Source: a virus
Strand: one strand, 5' to 3'
DNA length: 20,428 bases
Virus record (IMG/VR): IMGVR_UViG_3300027659_001407
Span: 1 to 20,428 of that record
The notes beneath the pieces were generated by a model. It saw only the letters and a program-made list of their open reading frames with translations, had not been told where the DNA came from and did no database searches. Each line of letters begins with the position of its first letter. Positions within the stretch are counted from its first letter, which is position 1. Below, one piece after another: positions 1,170-10,389 of the stretch. Made by a program: the position numbers and the translations under genes.

Positions 1170-2765
1170 ATGGCAGATACCACAACCACAAACCTATTGC
1201 TGACCAAGCCAGAAGTTGGGGCAAGCTCAAACACTTGGGGGACCAAGGTCAACACAGACCTTGATTTGGTCGATGCAATTTTTGCAGCTGCCGGCACTGG
1301 CACAAGTGTTGGCCTCAATGTTGGCGCTGGCAAGACCTTGGCGGTCGCGGGTACGCTGACAGCCACAGGCACAACAAACCTAACCTCGCCAGCTGTCACT
1401 ACGGGACTCACGACACCATCCACCACCTTTGCCCTGGTTAACACCACAGCGACTACTTTGAACTTGGCCGGTGCAGCGACCGCTGTCAACATTGGCGCTG
1501 CCACAGGAACTGCCACAGTCAATAACACAACCTTGGCGGCTAAAGCAATCACAGCAAGCACGACATTGGCGGTGACAGGGACATCGACACTCACTGGCGC
1601 AGTCACAGCAACGGCAGGGGTGACAGGCCCACTCACATCGAGCAATGTGGCGATTACGGGCGGCTCAATTACTGGCATTACCGATTTGGCGGTGGCTGAT
1701 GGGGGAACTGGTGCTTCTACAGCACAGGCTGCATTGAATAATCTCTTGCCATCACAAACCTCTGCTGCCAACAAGTATCTGCAAAGCGATGGCACAAACG
1801 CATCATGGGATGCTGTCACGTTATCTACTTCAGACATCACAGGAACTTTGGCAGTTCTTAATGGCGGCACTGGCCAGACAAGCTACACCGATGGCCAGCT
1901 GCTGATTGGTAACAGCACCGGCAACACTTTGACCAAGGCATCTTTGACGGCTGGGTCTGGCGTGACCATCACACCAGGCGCTGGATCTATTCAAATTGCA
2001 TTTACTGGACCAGGCGCTGGATCGGTGACAAGTGTGGATGTATCGGGCGGCACAACTGGACTGACTACAAGCGGCGGCCCAGTCGCATCATCCGGCACAA
2101 TTACCCTAGCAGGGACATTGGCGGCAGCAAATGGCGGCACAGGGGTAGCAAACAACGCTGCCATGACAGTCACAGGCTCTGGCAACTTTGCCTACACAAG
2201 GACTCTGACAGGCACAACAAACGTCACATTCCCCACAACGGGAACATTAAGCACTTTGGCGGGTACAGAAACCCTGACAAACAAAACAATTGCTTACGGA
2301 AGTAACACACTCACTGATGTGGTAGGTGTTACAGCAACACAAACGCTGACAAACAAGACTCTGACATCTCCAACACTTACAACTCCTGTACTTGGAACAC
2401 CATCTAGCGGAACATTAAGTTCTTGCACAGTTGATGGCACAAACAAAGTTGGCTATCAAAACATTCCTTTGTCGGGCATTAAAACAGCAAGTTATACATT
2501 GGTTGCTGGAGATGTGGGTAAGTTTGTTGAATTGGGAACATCAGGAACAATTGTAGTTCCAGCATCTGTATTCGCAACGGGTGATGCAATCAGTATCTTT
2601 AACAATACATCAGCATCGATTTCTTGCGATTGCTCTGCTGTAACGACAGTTTACAAAGGTGGCACAGATACGGATATTGCCTCTTTTAGCGTTACTACAA
2701 GAGGTGTAGCTACTATTCTTTTTATCACTGCCACAGTTGCTGTAGTAACGGGGAATTTAGCATGA
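1170..2765 (+). CDS. Tail fibre protein with Gly-Gly-Thr-Gly and LTNKT repeats
   Basis: A 531-residue protein rich in Thr, Ala, Gly and Val with almost no charge in the middle, as expected for a fibrous beta-structured trimeric fibre. The N-terminus (L-L-L-T-K-P-E-V-G followed by N-T-W-G-x-K-V-N-T-D) resembles the virion-attachment ends of many phage fibres. The shaft has three GGTG motifs (about residues 178, 232 and 322) and two L-T-N-K-T repeats (369, 393), the latter a hallmark of phage fibre shafts. From about residue 435 a denser domain with three cysteines begins, probably a C-terminal head. AAGGA lies about 8 bases before the ATG. The 3' third is more AT-rich than the 5' part, which may mark a recombination joint. 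The next gene overlaps by ATGA. Confidence 0.85.
1974..2023 (+). repeat. 14-bp direct repeat in fibre gene
   Basis: CCAGGCGCTGGATC occurs at 1974-1987 and again at 2010-2023, in the same frame, encoding Pro-Gly-Ala-Gly-Ser each time. It is part of the internal periodicity of the fibre shaft and could support slippage or recombination between copies. No mobile-element meaning is implied. Confidence 0.75.
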
Positions 2766-3412
2766 GTGGGATGATGCTTAATATTGTGGGTGGCAGTTTT
2801 GCCCCTGCCATTCCTACAGTAATTGGTCAAGCCTTTGGTGGTGGATTCTATGCTGGTCAAATTGGGGTAAGTAGTGTTGCTACACACTTTTTAATTGTTG
2901 GGCCAAAGTCTACAGCACAAAGTTCATTAAAATGGAAAAACGCAAACACAGCAACATCTGGTGCTGATAGTGACATTAACGGCCCACAGAATACAGCGGA
3001 TATGGTTGCTGATGGTAACTCAACAGTTTATCCTGCAGCCCACTTCTGTAATGATTTATCCACTGGTGGTCAGACTGATTGGTATATGCCAGCCAAGAAC
3101 GAGTTAGAAGTTTGTTATTACAACTTAAAACCAGATTCTTTTGCAAACTATACTTCATCTGGAAATGGAATTAACCCTAATGCTGTCCCTGCTAGGGCAA
3201 GTGCCTACACTACTAGCAATCCAGCGCTAACTTCCGCTACTGAATTTAGAGACCAAACAGGTTCAGAACCTTTCGACATTAACGCTTACTGGTCTAGCAC
3301 CGAGTATTCTGCTACTTATGCTAGAAGCCAAGGCTTCTTAACAGGCAGGCAGGAATACAACGGCAAGGGAAATTCTTATCGTGTCCGAGCAGTTCGCAGA
3401 ATTGCAGTTTAA
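2762..3412 (+). CDS. DUF1566 / C-type-lectin-like tail tip protein, probable receptor binder
   Basis: A 216-residue protein whose ATG overlaps the fibre stop (ATGA). The N-terminal 35 residues are hydrophobic and Gly-rich. The rest has the order typical of DUF1566 (Lcl C-terminal) domains: G-G[12 protein letters not shown] (residues 102-115, the 'WRLPTxxEL' element), then Y-W-S-S-T-E-Y-S (176-183), then a Gly/Asn loop and a closing Y-R-V-R-A-V-R-R-I (206-214). Such domains have the C-type-lectin/formylglycine-enzyme fold and often sit at fibre tips or cell surfaces. Translational coupling to the fibre gene suggests it forms or caps the fibre tip. The lectin fold is a family inference; ligand and stoichiometry are unknown. 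Composition is AT-rich like its right-hand neighbours. Confidence 0.72.
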
Positions 3413-3427
3413 TAAAGGAGTATCCCA

Positions 3428-3853
3428 ATGTACATTTGCATTACCGAAGTAGATGCAGTTACAAAAATACCTTGCACAGTTGAGCCACAACGCACAGGCC
3501 CATCAATGCCAGCGGTTAAGGGTTGGACTCATATTTGGCATGACAGTTCTACATGGCCTGTTAGCACATCATCTGATGGCACATACCTACGTGCGCCTAA
3601 ATACTATGGCACTTGTGATGACGATGCTGACACTACCATTGCGGGTGTTTTGCAAGTCTTAACCGAAGCAGAATTCAATGCGGCCAAAGTTGCCGAGCAT
3701 GAAGCCCGTAAGCCTTATCCATCATGGATTGGCTATTTGGACACAATGACATGGGGTGCGCCAGTAGCTAGACCCGCTGATGCCATTATGAATGGTGGCA
3801 ATGTGCGTTATCAATGGGATGAAGCCACAGTCAATTGGATTCCAATGGCATGA
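3428..3853 (+). CDS. Small tail-fibre accessory/assembly-like protein
   Basis: A 141-residue protein with a very good ribosome binding site (AAAGGAG at 3414-3420, 7 bases before the ATG). Tryptophans are frequent, and the C-terminus has a run P-S-W-I-G-Y (98-103), M-T-W-G-A-P (107-112) and Y-Q-W-D-E-x-T-x-x-W (128-137). Similar Trp-rich ends occur in small phage proteins next to fibre genes, sometimes annotated as fibre assembly or tip proteins. No signal peptide or membrane segment is visible. Its position between the lectin-like gene and the sulfotransferase, with an ATGA link to the latter, places it in the host-recognition block. The exact role, assembly chaperone or structural tip, is not resolved. 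Confidence 0.6.
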   Translation: MYICITEVDAVTKIPCTVEPQRTGPSMPAVKGWTHIWHDSSTWPVSTSSDGTYLRAPKYYGTCDDDADTTIAGVLQVLTEAEFNAAKVAEHEARKPYPSWIGYLDTMTWGAPVARPADAIMNGGNVRYQWDEATVNWIPMA

Positions 3854-4671
3854 AAGAGTTTTTCTTTATCTCAGGTTTGCCAAGGTCAGGTTCAACCCTG
3901 CTCTCGGCTATCTTGCGTCAGAACCCTGAGTTCCATGCGGATATATCTTCGCCCATGCAAAGTTTGGTGATCTCAACCATCAATGTGATTACAGAAAACG
4001 AAAATAACCATTTGATTGATGAAGACAGACGCAAGCAAATACTTAAAGATTTATTTAATGCTTACTACAAAGAAGTTAAGCCAAATACAGTATTTGACAC
4101 TAGCAGACGTTGGACTTCTAAAACATCTCTATTGAAAGAGCTTTACCCACAGACCAAAATCATTTGCTGTGTGCGTGATTTGCCTTGGATACTTGATAGC
4201 TTTGAACGTATTGCTGCCAAGAACTCTTTGTATGGTGCGGCACTAACAGACGATGAAGCTAGGCAGACAGTCACCACAAGGTGCGATGCCCTGATGGATG
4301 TAAAAAAGGAAGGCCAAGTGGTCAAGCCTTATTACTTCTTAGAAGAAGGTTTACTGTTAAACCCCGACATGATTATGTTGGTGGAATATGAATCTTTATG
4401 CAAACAACCTGAAAGTGTTATGCGTGAGATTTATGGGTTTATTGGCAAGCCTTATTATGACCATGACTTCAAAAATGTTGAGTATGAGAACGAAGTGTTT
4501 GACAAAGCCTTGAACATGAAGAGCCTGCATACAGTCAGGAAAGAAGTGACATGGCAAGAACGCCCCTCAATCCTGCCCAAATCAGTTTGGGAGAAGTATT
4601 CGGGCAAAGACTTCTGGCGCACACCCGCACCAGAGTTTGCAATCAAACAACTTTATAAGGCCAAGGGATGA
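3850..4671 (+). CDS. PAPS-dependent sulfotransferase
   Basis: A 273-residue protein. I take the ATG at 3850, which overlaps the previous stop (ATGA), rather than the in-frame TTG at 3835. Residues 8-18 read S-G-L-P-R-S-G-S-T-L-L, the 5'-phosphosulfate-binding loop of sulfotransferases. Residues 107-121 (C-V-R-D-L-P-W-I-L-D-S-F-E-R-I) match the strand-helix carrying the Arg and Ser that hold the 3'-phosphate of PAPS. Length is normal for a single-domain soluble enzyme, with no signal peptide. It should transfer sulfate from PAPS to a hydroxyl or amine; the acceptor (host surface glycan, virion fibre or metabolite) is unknown. The next gene, an APS-kinase-like protein joined by ATGA, could make its donor. 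Low G+C suggests recent acquisition as a block. Confidence 0.85.
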   Translation: MKEFFFISGLPRSGSTLLSAILRQNPEFHADISSPMQSLVISTINVITENENNHLIDEDRRKQILKDLFNAYYKEVKPNTVFDTSRRWTSKTSLLKELYPQTKIICCVRDLPWILDSFERIAAKNSLYGAALTDDEARQTVTTRCDALMDVKKEGQVVKPYYFLEEGLLLNPDMIMLVEYESLCKQPESVMREIYGFIGKPYYDHDFKNVEYENEVFDKALNMKSLHTVRKEVTWQERPSILPKSVWEKYSGKDFWRTPAPEFAIKQLYKAKG

Positions 4672-5453: not shown

Positions 5454-5662
5454 TGAGCGATAAAATGATCAGTGAAACAGAAGCCAAACTGTCAGTGCAT
5501 GAGGCTATTTGTGCTGAACGATACGAGAGCATTCAGCAAAGTTTTGCCGCTGGCTCAAAGCGCATGACGAAGATTGAATATCTGCTTTATATCGTGATTG
5601 CCGCGGTTTTGTTTGGACCAGGGGTGGCTGCCGAATTTGTGAAAAAAATGTTGGGGCTATGA
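5453..5662 (+). CDS. Small XhlA-like membrane protein, possible holin accessory
   Basis: A 69-residue protein starting within the previous stop (TAATG). The first 40 residues are charged and helical (S-E-T-E-A-K-L-S-V-H-E), then residues 41-60 form one clear membrane segment, followed by a short basic tail (E-F-V-K-K-M). An amphipathic N-terminal helix followed by one TM helix is the layout of XhlA-type haemolysin/holin-accessory proteins. It opens the lysis cassette. The role is inferred from layout and position only. Confidence 0.55.
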   Translation: MSDKMISETEAKLSVHEAICAERYESIQQSFAAGSKRMTKIEYLLYIVIAAVLFGPGVAAEFVKKMLGL

Positions 5663-5751
5663 AAGACTGGGCCGTGGCACTCATTGCCGCGGTCTGCATC
5701 ACTGTCTTTGTCGTTTGGGGTAGTTTTGTCATCATTTTGATGTGGCCATGA
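5659..5751 (+). CDS. 30-residue single-TM micro-protein
   Basis: A very short gene whose ATG overlaps the previous stop (ATGA). After M-K-D-W the product is almost wholly hydrophobic (A-V-A-L-I-A-A-V-C-I-T-V-F-V-V-W) up to the terminal M-W-P, so it is one membrane helix with virtually no soluble part. The next gene again overlaps by ATGA, giving an unbroken chain of coupled starts, which is the main reason to believe it is translated. It could be a small holin, antiholin or membrane regulator of lysis; nothing in the sequence decides between these. Confidence 0.5.
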   Translation: MKDWAVALIAAVCITVFVVWGSFVIILMWP

Positions 5752-5873
5752 TCTATGCTCTGGTCCTATTAGCAGCTGCTGCCGAATATCGATGCACCAA
5801 GTGGACATGGACTGGTGATGTCTACAATCGGAGGGTTGTTTGCCTTGAATGGAAAAAGGTAGAAAAGAAATGA
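5748..5873 (+). CDS. 41-residue exported two-cysteine protein
   Basis: It begins at an ATG overlapping the previous stop and ends in a TGA overlapping the next ATG. A short hydrophobic N-terminus (M-I-Y-A-L-V-L-L-A-A-A-A) looks like a signal peptide or anchor, followed by Y-R-C-T-K-W-T-W-T-G-D-V-Y and V-V-C-L-E-W-K-K. Cys16 and Cys32 are well placed for a disulfide in the periplasm, and the Trp/Thr-rich strand suggests a tiny beta hairpin. I do not recognise a named family, though I recall comparable tiny ORFs in other phage lysis regions. The function is unknown; export and involvement in envelope disruption are inferences. Confidence 0.5.
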   Translation: MIYALVLLAAAAEYRCTKWTWTGDVYNRRVVCLEWKKVEKK

Positions 5874-6367
5874 TCGATCCGATTACAGCCCTGGCGGGAA
5901 TACAAAGCGCCATCAGCATGGTCAAGAAGGCAGCAAAGGTTGCCAATGACTTAGGCTCACTTGCGCCAATGATTGGCAAGCTATTTGACGCTAAGTCTGT
6001 AGCTACCAAAGCAATGCTTCAAGCCAAGCAGTCTGGCAAAGGCTCAAACATGGGAACGGCCTTGCAGATTGAAATGGCACTAGAGCAAGCCAGAGCGTTT
6101 GAGGAAGAGTTAAAGATGCTCTTCATGCAGACAGGAAAGATTGACGTTTGGAACAAGATAAAAGCTCGGCAAGCAGAGATGGACTTGGCAGATGCTAAAG
6201 AGATTAGTGCGCTAAAGGCAGAAGCAAAGAAAGCCAAAGAGAAAGAGCAAGAACAACTAGAGATTGGTTTGGCAATAGGTGGAGTCTTCTTTGTTCTGTT
6301 TCTAGTCTTTGTTGGCGTAAATGAGTTGATGGAATTCTGTGCCAGTACTAGAAGGTGCGGTCGGTGA
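5870..6367 (+). CDS. Coiled-coil protein with C-terminal membrane segment
   Basis: A 165-residue protein. I use the ATG at 5870, which overlaps the previous stop (ATGA) and has AAAGG ten bases upstream; the ATG at 5849 would lie inside the preceding gene. The N-terminus M-I-D-P-I-T-A-L resembles a conserved start I recall in phage proteins of this position. Residues about 66-130 are long charged helices rich in Ala, Lys and Glu (probable coiled coil), and residues 132-150 form a hydrophobic segment (G-L-A-I-G-G-V-F-F-V-L-F-L-V-F-V-G-V). It ends with two cysteines. A membrane-anchored protein of the lysis region; the role (holin partner or virion membrane protein) is unknown. Confidence 0.65.
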   Translation: MIDPITALAGIQSAISMVKKAAKVANDLGSLAPMIGKLFDAKSVATKAMLQAKQSGKGSNMGTALQIEMALEQARAFEEELKMLFMQTGKIDVWNKIKARQAEMDLADAKEISALKAEAKKAKEKEQEQLEIGLAIGGVFFVLFLVFVGVNELMEFCASTRRCGR

Positions 6368-7185: not shown

Positions 7186-7661
7186 TGTTTGGCATCCCAT
7201 TACCCTATATCGCCCTGGCAATCGGCATTGCCTTGTTTGGCTCTTACCGAGGTGGCTATCATTATGGGTGGTCAGATCGTGACGCTGAAATGCAGATTGC
7301 CATTGCCAAAAAGAATGATGAGGCCAGAGCCAAAGAGGCAGAGCTTGGCACTAAGTTGATTGACCAGGAAACGAAACTCAGAAAGGCCCAAGATGATGTC
7401 AAGAAAAAACAGTCTGCTATGCATGAGCTTGCTAGGACTGGCCGGCTGCGCCTCCCAACCGCAAGTTGTCCACAAGCCAGTCCAAGTGCCACCATTGCCA
7501 TTGGAAATCCACAACCCAGCCAGCCCGATGAAAGCGAACTTGAGCGACAGACTATTGCAACTCTTATCGACATCGCAGCCGAAGGAGACAAAGCCATCAC
7601 CAAGCTCAACGCCTGCGCCAGCGCCTACGAAGAAGTAAGGAGAATTGTCAATGGTCAATAG
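7185..7661 (+). CDS. Rz: Rz-like inner-membrane spanin
   Basis: A 158-residue protein with AGGAG eight bases before the ATG. Residues 5-20 form an N-terminal membrane anchor. Then a charged, probably coiled-coil region (about 30-80: A-K-K-N-D-E-A-R-A-K-E-A-E-L) is followed by L-R-L-P-T-A-S-C, the segment seen in many Rz proteins near the junction between coil and C-terminal domain, and the protein ends with N-A-C-A-S-A-Y-E-E-V. This is the inner-membrane half of the two-component spanin that fuses inner and outer membranes in the last step of lysis. An Rz1 frame is nested inside it (7393-7638), which strongly supports the call. It overlaps the endolysin start by 11 bases. Confidence 0.85.
   Translation: MFGIPLPYIALAIGIALFGSYRGGYHYGWSDRDAEMQIAIAKKNDEARAKEAELGTKLIDQETKLRKAQDDVKKKQSAMHELARTGRLRLPTASCPQASPSATIAIGNPQPSQPDESELERQTIATLIDIAAEGDKAITKLNACASAYEEVRRIVNGQ
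7393..7638 (+). CDS. Rz1: Rz1-like outer-membrane spanin lipoprotein nested in Rz
   Basis: Read in another frame wholly inside Rz. Two adjacent ATGs (7393, 7396) follow an AAAGG at 7383-7387; an upstream TTG at 7360 is also in frame but gives a poor signal peptide. The product of about 81 residues has a lipoprotein signal (basic start, L-L-C-M-S-L-L-G-L) with lipobox L-A-G-C and Cys19. The mature part is proline-rich (P-V-Q-V-P-P-L-P-L) and ends P-S-S-T-P-A-P-A-P-T-K-K. A nested, proline-rich lipoprotein overlapping Rz is diagnostic of Rz1. It would sit in the outer membrane and bind Rz across the periplasm. Rz therefore has constrained codons in this stretch. Confidence 0.85.
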   Translation: MMSRKNSLLCMSLLGLAGCASQPQVVHKPVQVPPLPLEIHNPASPMKANLSDRLLQLLSTSQPKETKPSPSSTPAPAPTKK

Positions 7662-8244
7662 TCAGCAGCTCCAGCAACTGCACATTGGCCCAGAGTGGGT
7701 CGATGCGCTTAATGAGACTTTCCAGCGCTTTGACATTTCAACGCCATTGCGCCAGGCTGCCTTTATTGGCCAGTGTGGCCATGAGTGTGGCAATTTTAGG
7801 GTGCTGCAAGAGAACTTGAATTACAGAGCAGAGGCTCTGCAAAAGCTCTGGCCCAAGCGCTTTGACGCGGCCAAGGCCCAAGCCTGCGCCCGTAATCCAA
7901 AGGCCATTGCCACGGCTGTTTACTCGAACCGCATGGGCAACCGAGATGAGGCAAGTGGGGATGCCTGGCGCTTCATTGGCCGAGGATGCATCCAGCTCAC
8001 TGGCTCTAGCAATTATTTTCACGCTGGCCAAGCGCTTGGCGTGGACCTGATCATGCAGCCCGAGCTGGTGGCCACGCCCCAGTATGCAGCCCTAACTGCC
8101 GGATGGTTTTGGGACACCCACAAGCTCAACCAGTATGCGGATAGCCAAGACTACCGGACCATGACCAAAAAGATCAATGGCGGGTTCATAGGTTTAGACG
8201 ACCGCATCAAGCACATCAACCATGCACTGTCTGTCCTGACATAA
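7651..8244 (+). CDS. GH19 chitinase-like endolysin
   Basis: A 197-residue protein. I choose the ATG at 7651, eight bases after AAGGAG (7637-7642); the TTG at 7645 is too close to it. Residues 38-47 (F-I-G-Q-C-G-H-E-C-G) match the H-E-[ST]-G element holding the catalytic glutamate (Glu45 here) of glycoside hydrolase family 19, and residues 107-118 (R-F-I-G-R-G-C-I-Q-L-T-G) match the family's substrate-cleft motif. No signal peptide is seen, so the enzyme should need a holin to reach the cell wall. It cleaves the glycan strand of peptidoglycan. Four cysteines at 42, 46, 79 and 113 are notable for a cytoplasmic enzyme. It follows Rz/Rz1, an order that varies between phages. Confidence 0.88.
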   Translation: MVNSQQLQQLHIGPEWVDALNETFQRFDISTPLRQAAFIGQCGHECGNFRVLQENLNYRAEALQKLWPKRFDAAKAQACARNPKAIATAVYSNRMGNRDEASGDAWRFIGRGCIQLTGSSNYFHAGQALGVDLIMQPELVATPQYAALTAGWFWDTHKLNQYADSQDYRTMTKKINGGFIGLDDRIKHINHALSVLT

Positions 8245-8910: not shown

Positions 8911-10389
8911 ATGTACATACCCATCAAACTACCCCCAGGTGTTTACCGAAATGGCACTGAGTATCAGTCTGCTGGGCGCTGGCATGACGCTAATTTGGTG
9001 CGCTGGTATGAAAACACATTGAGACCAGTCAACGGCTGGCGCAGTAAATCGGCATCAACTGTGACGGGCGCTTGCAGGGCAATCATCACTTGGCGCGATA
9101 ACGCTGCCGACTCTTACATTGGGCTTGGCACTCACTCCAAGCTCTTTGCAATGGATGTTTTGGGTGTTCTGAAAGACATCACACCCACTGGATTTACAAC
9201 TGGCTTCATTGATGCCACCAGCACCACAGGCTACGGCAAAAACCTGTATGGCAGCTTTGCTTATGGCGTGCCACGGCCTGACACTGGATCGGCAGATATT
9301 GCCACCACTTGGTCACTTGATACATGGGGCGAGTATTTGGTGGCTTGCTCAAATTACGATGGCAAGATTTACGAGTGGCAGCTAGGCTTTGCCACACCCA
9401 CATTGGCTGCTGTTATTACTAACGCGCCAGTGAGTAACACTGCCATTTTGGTGACTGCCGAGCGTTTCCTGTTTGCACTTGGCGCGGGTGGAAACCCAAG
9501 AAAAGTGCAGTGGTGCGACCAAGAGAACAATACCCTTTGGACACCGGCAGGCGACAACCAGGCAGGCGATTATGAGCTGACAACGCCTGGCAGTTTACTG
9601 GCTGGCAAACGTGTCAAGGGCATCAACTTGCTGTTTACAGATGTGGATGTCCACACGGCCCAGTATGTTGGCGCGCCATTCATTTATGGCTTTGAGAAGG
9701 CCGGAAGCGGCTGCGGTCTTATCTCGGCCCAGTCTGTGGCGGCCATTGACACTGCTGCCATTTGGATGAGCAAGTCTGGGTTCTTTATCTATGACGGCTA
9801 CGTCAAGCCACTGCCTTGCGATGTCTCTGATTTTGTTTTTAGCAATATCAACTTTGACCAGAGAACAAAAATTGTTGCGGTCCACAACTCCAAGTTTGGT
9901 GAAATTTGGTGGTTTTACCCAAGCAATGCAGGCTTGGAAAATGACAGCTATGTAACTTTTAACTACCGCGAAAATCACTGGAATGTCGGCTCACTGGTGC
10001 GCCTATGTGGCACTGACGCTGGCGTTTTCACCCTGCCTTTGATGGTGGATGATAGCGGCGAGGTCTATGAGCATGAGGTCGGCTTTGACTATGATGGTGC
10101 GACACTCTTTGCAGAGTCTGGTCCCATCCAAATTGGCAATGGCGACAATGTGATGAAGGTCAGAGAAGTTGTGCCAGATGAGCAGACCTTGGGTGAGGCG
10201 GTGATTTCGTTCAAAACCCGTCTTTACCCGACAAGTGCTGAGTCTACCTTTGGGCCATTTACGGCAGCCAACCCAACTTCAGTAAGGTTTTCTGGCCGCC
10301 AAATCAACATGGTGGTAACTGGTGCGGCTTTGGCCGACTGGCGCATTGGAGTCATTAGACTTGATGCTGTGGCCAGCGGCAAGAGATGA
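8911..10389 (+). CDS. Large structural protein, possible tail-nozzle/stabilisation protein
   Basis: A 492-residue soluble protein that is rich in Trp, Tyr, Gly and beta-strand-like segments. The opening (I-K-L-P-P-G-V-Y-R-N-G-T-E-Y then G-R-W-H-D) is a conserved phage start. Repeated units with Gly-Asp-turns and W-S-L-D-T-W-G-E-Y / I-Y-E-W-Q-L-like strands suggest a beta-propeller, the fold of the P22 gp10 tail nozzle. It begins two bases after the previous stop without a clear ribosome binding site, so coupling is probable, and ends in an ATGA overlap. I infer a head-completion or tail-nozzle role from size, fold impression and context; no search supports it. Confidence 0.55.
   Translation: MYIPIKLPPGVYRNGTEYQSAGRWHDANLVRWYENTLRPVNGWRSKSASTVTGACRAIITWRDNAADSYIGLGTHSKLFAMDVLGVLKDITPTGFTTGFIDATSTTGYGKNLYGSFAYGVPRPDTGSADIATTWSLDTWGEYLVACSNYDGKIYEWQLGFATPTLAAVITNAPVSNTAILVTAERFLFALGAGGNPRKVQWCDQENNTLWTPAGDNQAGDYELTTPGSLLAGKRVKGINLLFTDVDVHTAQYVGAPFIYGFEKAGSGCGLISAQSVAAIDTAAIWMSKSGFFIYDGYVKPLPCDVSDFVFSNINFDQRTKIVAVHNSKFGEIWWFYPSNAGLENDSYVTFNYRENHWNVGSLVRLCGTDAGVFTLPLMVDDSGEVYEHEVGFDYDGATLFAESGPIQIGNGDNVMKVREVVPDEQTLGEAVISFKTRLYPTSAESTFGPFTAANPTSVRFSGRQINMVVTGAALADWRIGVIRLDAVASGKR

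Follow-up and report, generated by a model that had tools for sequence, protein, structure and literature searches.

A C-type-lectin-fold tip gene in a phage genome fragment: probable product of a diversity-generating retroelement now absent from its usual site

The diversity-generating retroelement (DGR) of Bordetella phage BPP-1 diversifies Mtd. Proteins carrying the Lcl_C domain, formerly DUF1566, are already known as DGR targets (PMC4159848, PMC6642488), and DUF1566 is given as the commonest Pfam domain among human-microbiome DGR targets (PMC4159848). In Treponema denticola, A-type targets are described in genomes without reverse transcriptase (RT) or template, and are interpreted as remnants of DGRs whose cores were lost (PMC4891356). 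No report of RT-less DGR targets in phages was found in the open-access literature that we searched. The gene described here lies in a 20,428-base linear viral record (IMGVR_UViG_3300027659_001407), a genome fragment analysed at its full length and called the window below. With a probability of roughly two in three, we take it to encode a DGR-made receptor-binding tip that is now fixed and drifting.

The 216-aa ORF at 2762–3412 (+ strand) was confirmed, and its product matched the Lcl_C profile PF07603 with 48.3 bits, above the gathering cut-off of 34.9. The protein also matched the C-terminal part of phrog_4245, and neither the phrog nor the NCBIfam profile searches gave a function closer than Lcl. 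The upstream ORF (1170–2765, + strand, 531 aa) is a tail-fibre gene (phrog_31660, tail fibre protein, E 8e-14, with a second, weaker phrog match to a virion protein). It stops in the TGA of an ATGA at 2762–2765 (+ strand), and the tip gene starts in the same ATGA. An initial search of viral contigs gave 144 relatives, and 79 loci were kept. Of 77 relatives scored, 25 share with the window an ATGA overlap to a preceding ORF that is 100 aa or longer; stop-to-stop frames of at least 290 codons were present in 28 of the 79, and the sole long-frame relative tested (L010) has an fn3 domain ahead of Lcl_C. Because the following genes of the window are also joined by ATGA overlaps, at 3850–3853 and 4668–4671, the coupling of fibre and tip is a matter of operon style and is not special.

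Downstream of the tip gene is a 15-bp gap (3413–3427, + strand), where RT-bearing relatives have Avd, a template repeat and RT. It is followed by a 141-aa gene (3428–3853, + strand; weak match to phrog_7759, of unknown function), which in relatives follows the tip gene or the cassette, and by a sulfotransferase gene accompanying the tip module (3850–4671, + strand; PF13469, 71 bits). The segment 3850–5453 holds this sulfotransferase and then a P-loop kinase/cytidylyltransferase-like gene. Elsewhere in the window lie a glycosyltransferase-like (Anp1) gene at 7–537 and a GH19 chitinase-like gene at 7645–8244, whose role is probably that of an endolysin. An Rfam search of the window gave no match, and megablast against phages gave one match, with 3% coverage. 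The protein encoded at 8911–10386 matched 132 phage records by tblastn, 98 of them named Pseudomonas, and its best matches are annotated 'phage stabilization protein'. A scan of genome contigs with the tip yielded one distant locus, in a Bacteroidales MAG, which gives no host.

An AlphaFold2 model of the tip, based on a 50-sequence alignment, had a mean pLDDT of 92.9. Its best solved structural match was the C-terminal domain of Legionella Lcl (8q4e; Z 12.3 over 126 residues), to which the tip also matched by profile (E 1.2e-6); a fimbrial protein of Bacteroides came next, with Z 12.1. Matches to C-type lectins lay near Z 7, a value of little meaning by itself. The model thus supports a C-type-lectin fold for the window tip. 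Mtd and TvpA were not among the structural matches listed, which is informative neither way. A phmmer search of the single tip protein against the PDB gave an antibody chain as its sole match (E 0.08), which was taken as chance. Judging from its position beside the fibre, its predicted fold and its variable surface, the protein is a probable receptor-binding tip that sets host range.

In a profile of 63 distinct sequences, residues 182–207 of the tip contain many sites of 2.2–3.6 bits that alternate with invariant or near-invariant residues, and residues 172–175, just ahead, are variable too. The preliminary description of this DNA had placed a DUF1566-like domain directly after a fibre through an ATGA overlap, had given it a C-type-lectin-like fold and had singled out the stretch from Y-W-S-S-T-E-Y-S to Y-R-V-R; the domain and overlap are confirmed, the fold is borne out by prediction, and the stretch proved highly variable between relatives. 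In most of the hypervariable codons positions 1 and 2 are near random and position 3 is mostly T or C. This pattern is the reverse of ordinary coding change and, on codon composition, reads as the trace of rewriting from AAY template codons. Window codons 182–207 (3305–3382, + strand) align with the variable regions of RT-bearing relatives, of which they are the counterpart with a decayed signature, and the AAC and AAT codons of the relatives' templates coincide with the hypervariable codons of the profile. Residue K202 (3365–3367) is invariant in 63 of 63 sequences, yet templates read AAG there; template CAG codons are likewise mostly unchanged in variable regions. Either strong selection or the sparing of these adenines could account for this.

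An RT (RVT_1) was found in two of the 79 whole records of the first scan (none of 40, then two of 39). Both loci, L052 and L078, have the gene order Lcl_C, Avd, template repeat, RT, 141-aa gene. In L078 the RVT_1 and bAvd matches (67.8 and 43.1 bits) are over the Pfam cut-offs; Avd passed the bAvd cut-off in all three proteins tested, and the NCBIfam Avd model matches it below its own cut-off. With the relatives' RT as query 80 loci were obtained, and 16 with tip, Avd and RT were studied by an ungapped scan for mismatches between template and variable region, L087 being a repeat of L085. In eight distinct cassettes 136 of 136 mismatches fell on a template A, as did 18 of 18 in a ninth found later; L086 had 13 on A and one other. 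Left out of this count, because the ungapped scan hit a length difference or overran the template end, were L052 (20 on A, 16 other), L089 (12 and 6), L090–L092 (23 and 22) and L093 (15 and 6). RT, Avd, template and an A-specific variable region occur together in L078, L084, L085 and others. Where RT-bearing relatives have a recognisable 141-aa gene, about 1.7–1.9 kb separates it from the tip.

Cassettes are rare among the relatives fetched. An RT was present in six of the 135 records that were fetched with tip proteins and searched whole, many relatives' contigs being short fragments, and four of these six are probably one population, as they have equal scores. The family template pattern was found in 11 of 12 RT-bearing records, the exception being L089, and in none of 114 others, the window included. 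One of the 114, L059, ends 217 bases past the tip, inside an apparent Avd start, and is therefore probably RT-bearing. In a tree of the tips outside the variable region, which has many unresolved forks and six of 112 loci unclassified, RT-bearing and RT-less tips interleave; its strongly supported branches require at least three changes of RT state, in a direction that the tree does not fix.

To compare alleles, a locus was called RT-less if its downstream sequence covered at least 900 bases and showed neither Avd nor RT in the first 2.5 kb, so that the call describes the locus and not each whole record. The comparison took in 154 RT-less alleles, their variable regions being under 90% alike. 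At 13 scored sites T or C makes up 87% of their third bases, against 59% elsewhere in the gene. A perfect 13/13 signature was seen in 31 of the alleles, with 0.15 expected. The difference between variable-region sites and 37 variable control codons had a p of 6e-7, and after amino-acid matching 787 of 959 third bases were T or C, against 520 expected. All eight RT-bearing alleles scored 13/13. Five longer RT-less contigs were examined by an adenine-tolerant scan, which gave no template-like copy of their own tips; the same scan worked in one RT-bearing control. In record G139, 126 bases are common to the start and to a stretch 37 bases from the end, and by this shared stretch its completeness is suggested only.

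In the window, no RVT_1 was found in any of its 20,428 bases, and nothing matched the family template pattern with up to three mismatches, a search that a divergent template would escape. There is no Avd-like ORF between the tip and the next gene. The window holds a single tip gene, and 8 of its 13 third bases are T or C, the level of the background (0.59–0.62) and among the lowest eight of the 154 RT-less alleles. Since this tip alone shows no signature, the case for its DGR past rests on its relatives; since the usual site has no DGR, rewriting of the binding surface from that site has ceased. The preliminary description had further pointed to the fold as a DGR target in other systems and had proposed that an RT and a template repeat be sought in the rest of the genome. 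A DGR link holds for the family, in which RT, template repeat and Avd accompany the same gene in relatives, and is not supported for the window phage, in whose record neither element was found.

Pairs of alleles were then compared. Of 15 RT-less pairs with flank identities of 0.86–0.99, which form nine groups and are not independent, 10 had a variable region no less conserved than the flank. The five exceptions were less conserved than the flank, L264/L201 mildly and L246/L249 and three pairs of the L402 group (L402, L371, L318, L321) strongly; in L246/L249 and in the L402 group, third bases and framework codons are among the differing positions, a pattern that looks like segment exchange. Three further pairs were left out for an unclassified partner (flank/variable region 0.984/0.988, 0.882/0.893 and 0.866/0.714). 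All four non-identical RT-bearing pairs above the cut-off, a small sample from three groups, had diverged more in the variable region than in the flank; the clearest, L052/L083, has a flank identity of 0.991, over 109 bases only, against 0.738 in the variable region. Thirty pairs labelled RT-less with flanks at least 0.998 identical have identical variable regions, as have four RT-bearing pairs. Some of the thirty could come from populations sampled more than once, and a number of partners ended up unclassified, so they were not used as evidence.

Extra tip genes with different variable regions precede the 141-aa gene in at least 28 of 98 loci; L010, L026, L064 and other RT-less loci carry Lcl_C genes in tandem pairs or triplets whose leaders differ. 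Variable regions 0.96 and 0.905 identical were found between backbones of 0.87 and 0.78 identity. The tip, 141-aa and sulfotransferase genes occur together in contigs unmatched to most of the window's virion genes, and the sulfotransferase is 80–91% identical in such relatives. Transfer is therefore indicated, and the three genes look like one travelling module.

Three Pseudomonas phage isolates carry related loci. Cruim01, which like Aurca01 is described as a siphovirus (PMC11256456), carries a pair of tips together with Avd, template and RT. The complete genomes of Aurca01 and Medea1 lack RVT_1, and each holds two tips at the corresponding position. In Aurca01 a NUMOD4/HNH homing-endonuclease-like gene (L162:6491–6982) occupies the site at which Cruim01 has its Avd, template and RT. 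Just ahead of the template in Cruim01 is an Rfam RT-15 RNA (L161:6860–7052), which was absent from the other DGR loci tested, L052, L078, L084 and L085. The Cruim01 template fits all four variable regions of Aurca01 and Medea1, with 60 mismatches at A sites and a single one among 192 non-A positions. When Aurca01 and Medea1 are compared, the first tip copy lies inside a broader tract of ordinary differences (5645–6042). The second copy has 15 differences at template-A sites and one other base, between flanks that are identical over 619 bases downstream and differ at five of 303 upstream, with two more differences at the edge of the copy. An RT-less locus is therefore not always a fixed one. 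Of all the observations, this second copy points most clearly to rewriting in trans; it would also fit the exchange of a short tract.

These observations can be arranged in the following pathway, which is our preferred reading. A receptor-binding tip with a C-type-lectin fold would be carried with the tail fibre. In DGR-bearing relatives Avd and RT would copy the A-rich template repeat with errors at A, and the error-bearing copy would be transferred to the final codons of that gene. In the window phage the cassette is absent from its usual site, which would leave the surface fixed and subject to ordinary mutational drift, and we infer that a DGR is absent from the rest of its genome too. The window lineage may either have lost the cassette or have imported a finished tip, two histories that look the same for this phage. 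Across the family, ready-made tips would persist, often two or three in tandem, and move between phages by recombination. If instead RT-less phages were diversified in trans by Avd, RT and template from a co-infecting phage or from a prophage, one would readily understand why the Aurca01 and Medea1 variable regions all fit the Cruim01 template, why their second copies differ at A sites between near-identical flanks, and why 31 RT-less alleles keep a perfect signature; Cruim01-like prophages have moreover been reported in P. syringae (PMC11256456). We nevertheless consider this unlikely, as most of the 15 RT-less pairs have a variable region no less conserved than the flank, the window signature has decayed and no donor was found for the window, while the ordinary differences in the first Aurca01/Medea1 copy and the third-base and framework changes elsewhere are explained by recombination. 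A wider version, in which the DGR is a shared good, with a minority of carrier phages or prophages rewriting RT-less phages in trans while the others circulate tandem tip libraries, is likewise doubtful; its strongest case is the second Aurca01/Medea1 copy, changed at template-A sites between near-identical flanks that lack a cassette.

The window phage might also have its own DGR in the missing part of its genome, given that the record is a 20.4-kb linear fragment and that relatives' contigs reach 40–60 kb. However, RT directly follows the tip wherever both were seen in this analysis, the five longer RT-less contigs contain no template-like copy of their own tips, and the window stands at background where every RT-bearing allele is perfect, so that we regard such an element as improbable. 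A tip with no DGR history at all, shaped as a surface domain by ordinary diversifying selection and by recombination, would agree with the lack of a signature in the window tip alone and with the visible exchange of modules. Selection by itself would not be expected to vary codon positions 1 and 2 while keeping T or C at the third base, as in the 154 RT-less alleles, and this bias survives amino-acid matching, at codons that are AAY in the relatives' templates; a history of this kind is very improbable. A DGR-made tip, now fixed and drifting, is retained as the most likely reading for the window gene.

DGR surveys usually start from the RT, and phages with finished tips only would therefore be missed, although they form the large majority among the relatives fetched here. 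If the preferred reading is correct, DGRs affect phage host range more broadly than a tally of RTs would imply, and binders made by them can be fixed, stored and traded among phages. As the tips of RT-less isolates match the template of another isolate, rewriting in trans is directly testable.

The RT-bearing relatives resemble BPP-1 in the order target, Avd, template, RT, in the lectin-fold target and in the phage tail context, and the RT of L078 is 34% identical to that of BPP-1. Unlike BPP-1, the window record has no DGR, and the receptor-binding role of its tip is inferred. The closest solved fold, the Lcl C-terminal domain (8q4e), belongs to a bacterial adhesin according to its entry name and is 25% identical to the window tip in the structural alignment. 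The tips of Cruim01, Aurca01 and Medea1 belong to the same fold family, share about 35% identity with the window tip and, in Cruim01 only, have a DGR at the corresponding position; unlike the window tip, the two of them tested score below the Pfam cut-off. With the DUF1566 targets described in PMC4159848 and PMC6642488 the family shares the domain and a C-terminal variable region, and its RT-bearing members share the A-specific differences; those targets are listed with RT and template, whereas the window record has neither and its signature has decayed. The RT-less leftover targets with A-type variable regions described in T. denticola (PMC4891356) are similar, but they belong to bacterial strains and are mostly lipoproteins, whereas the genes of the window family are phage genes beside a fibre. 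Unlike the T. denticola targets as described there, the window family is RT-less in the large majority of the relatives fetched, with tips often held in tandem and exchanged, a state that is new as far as the literature searched shows.
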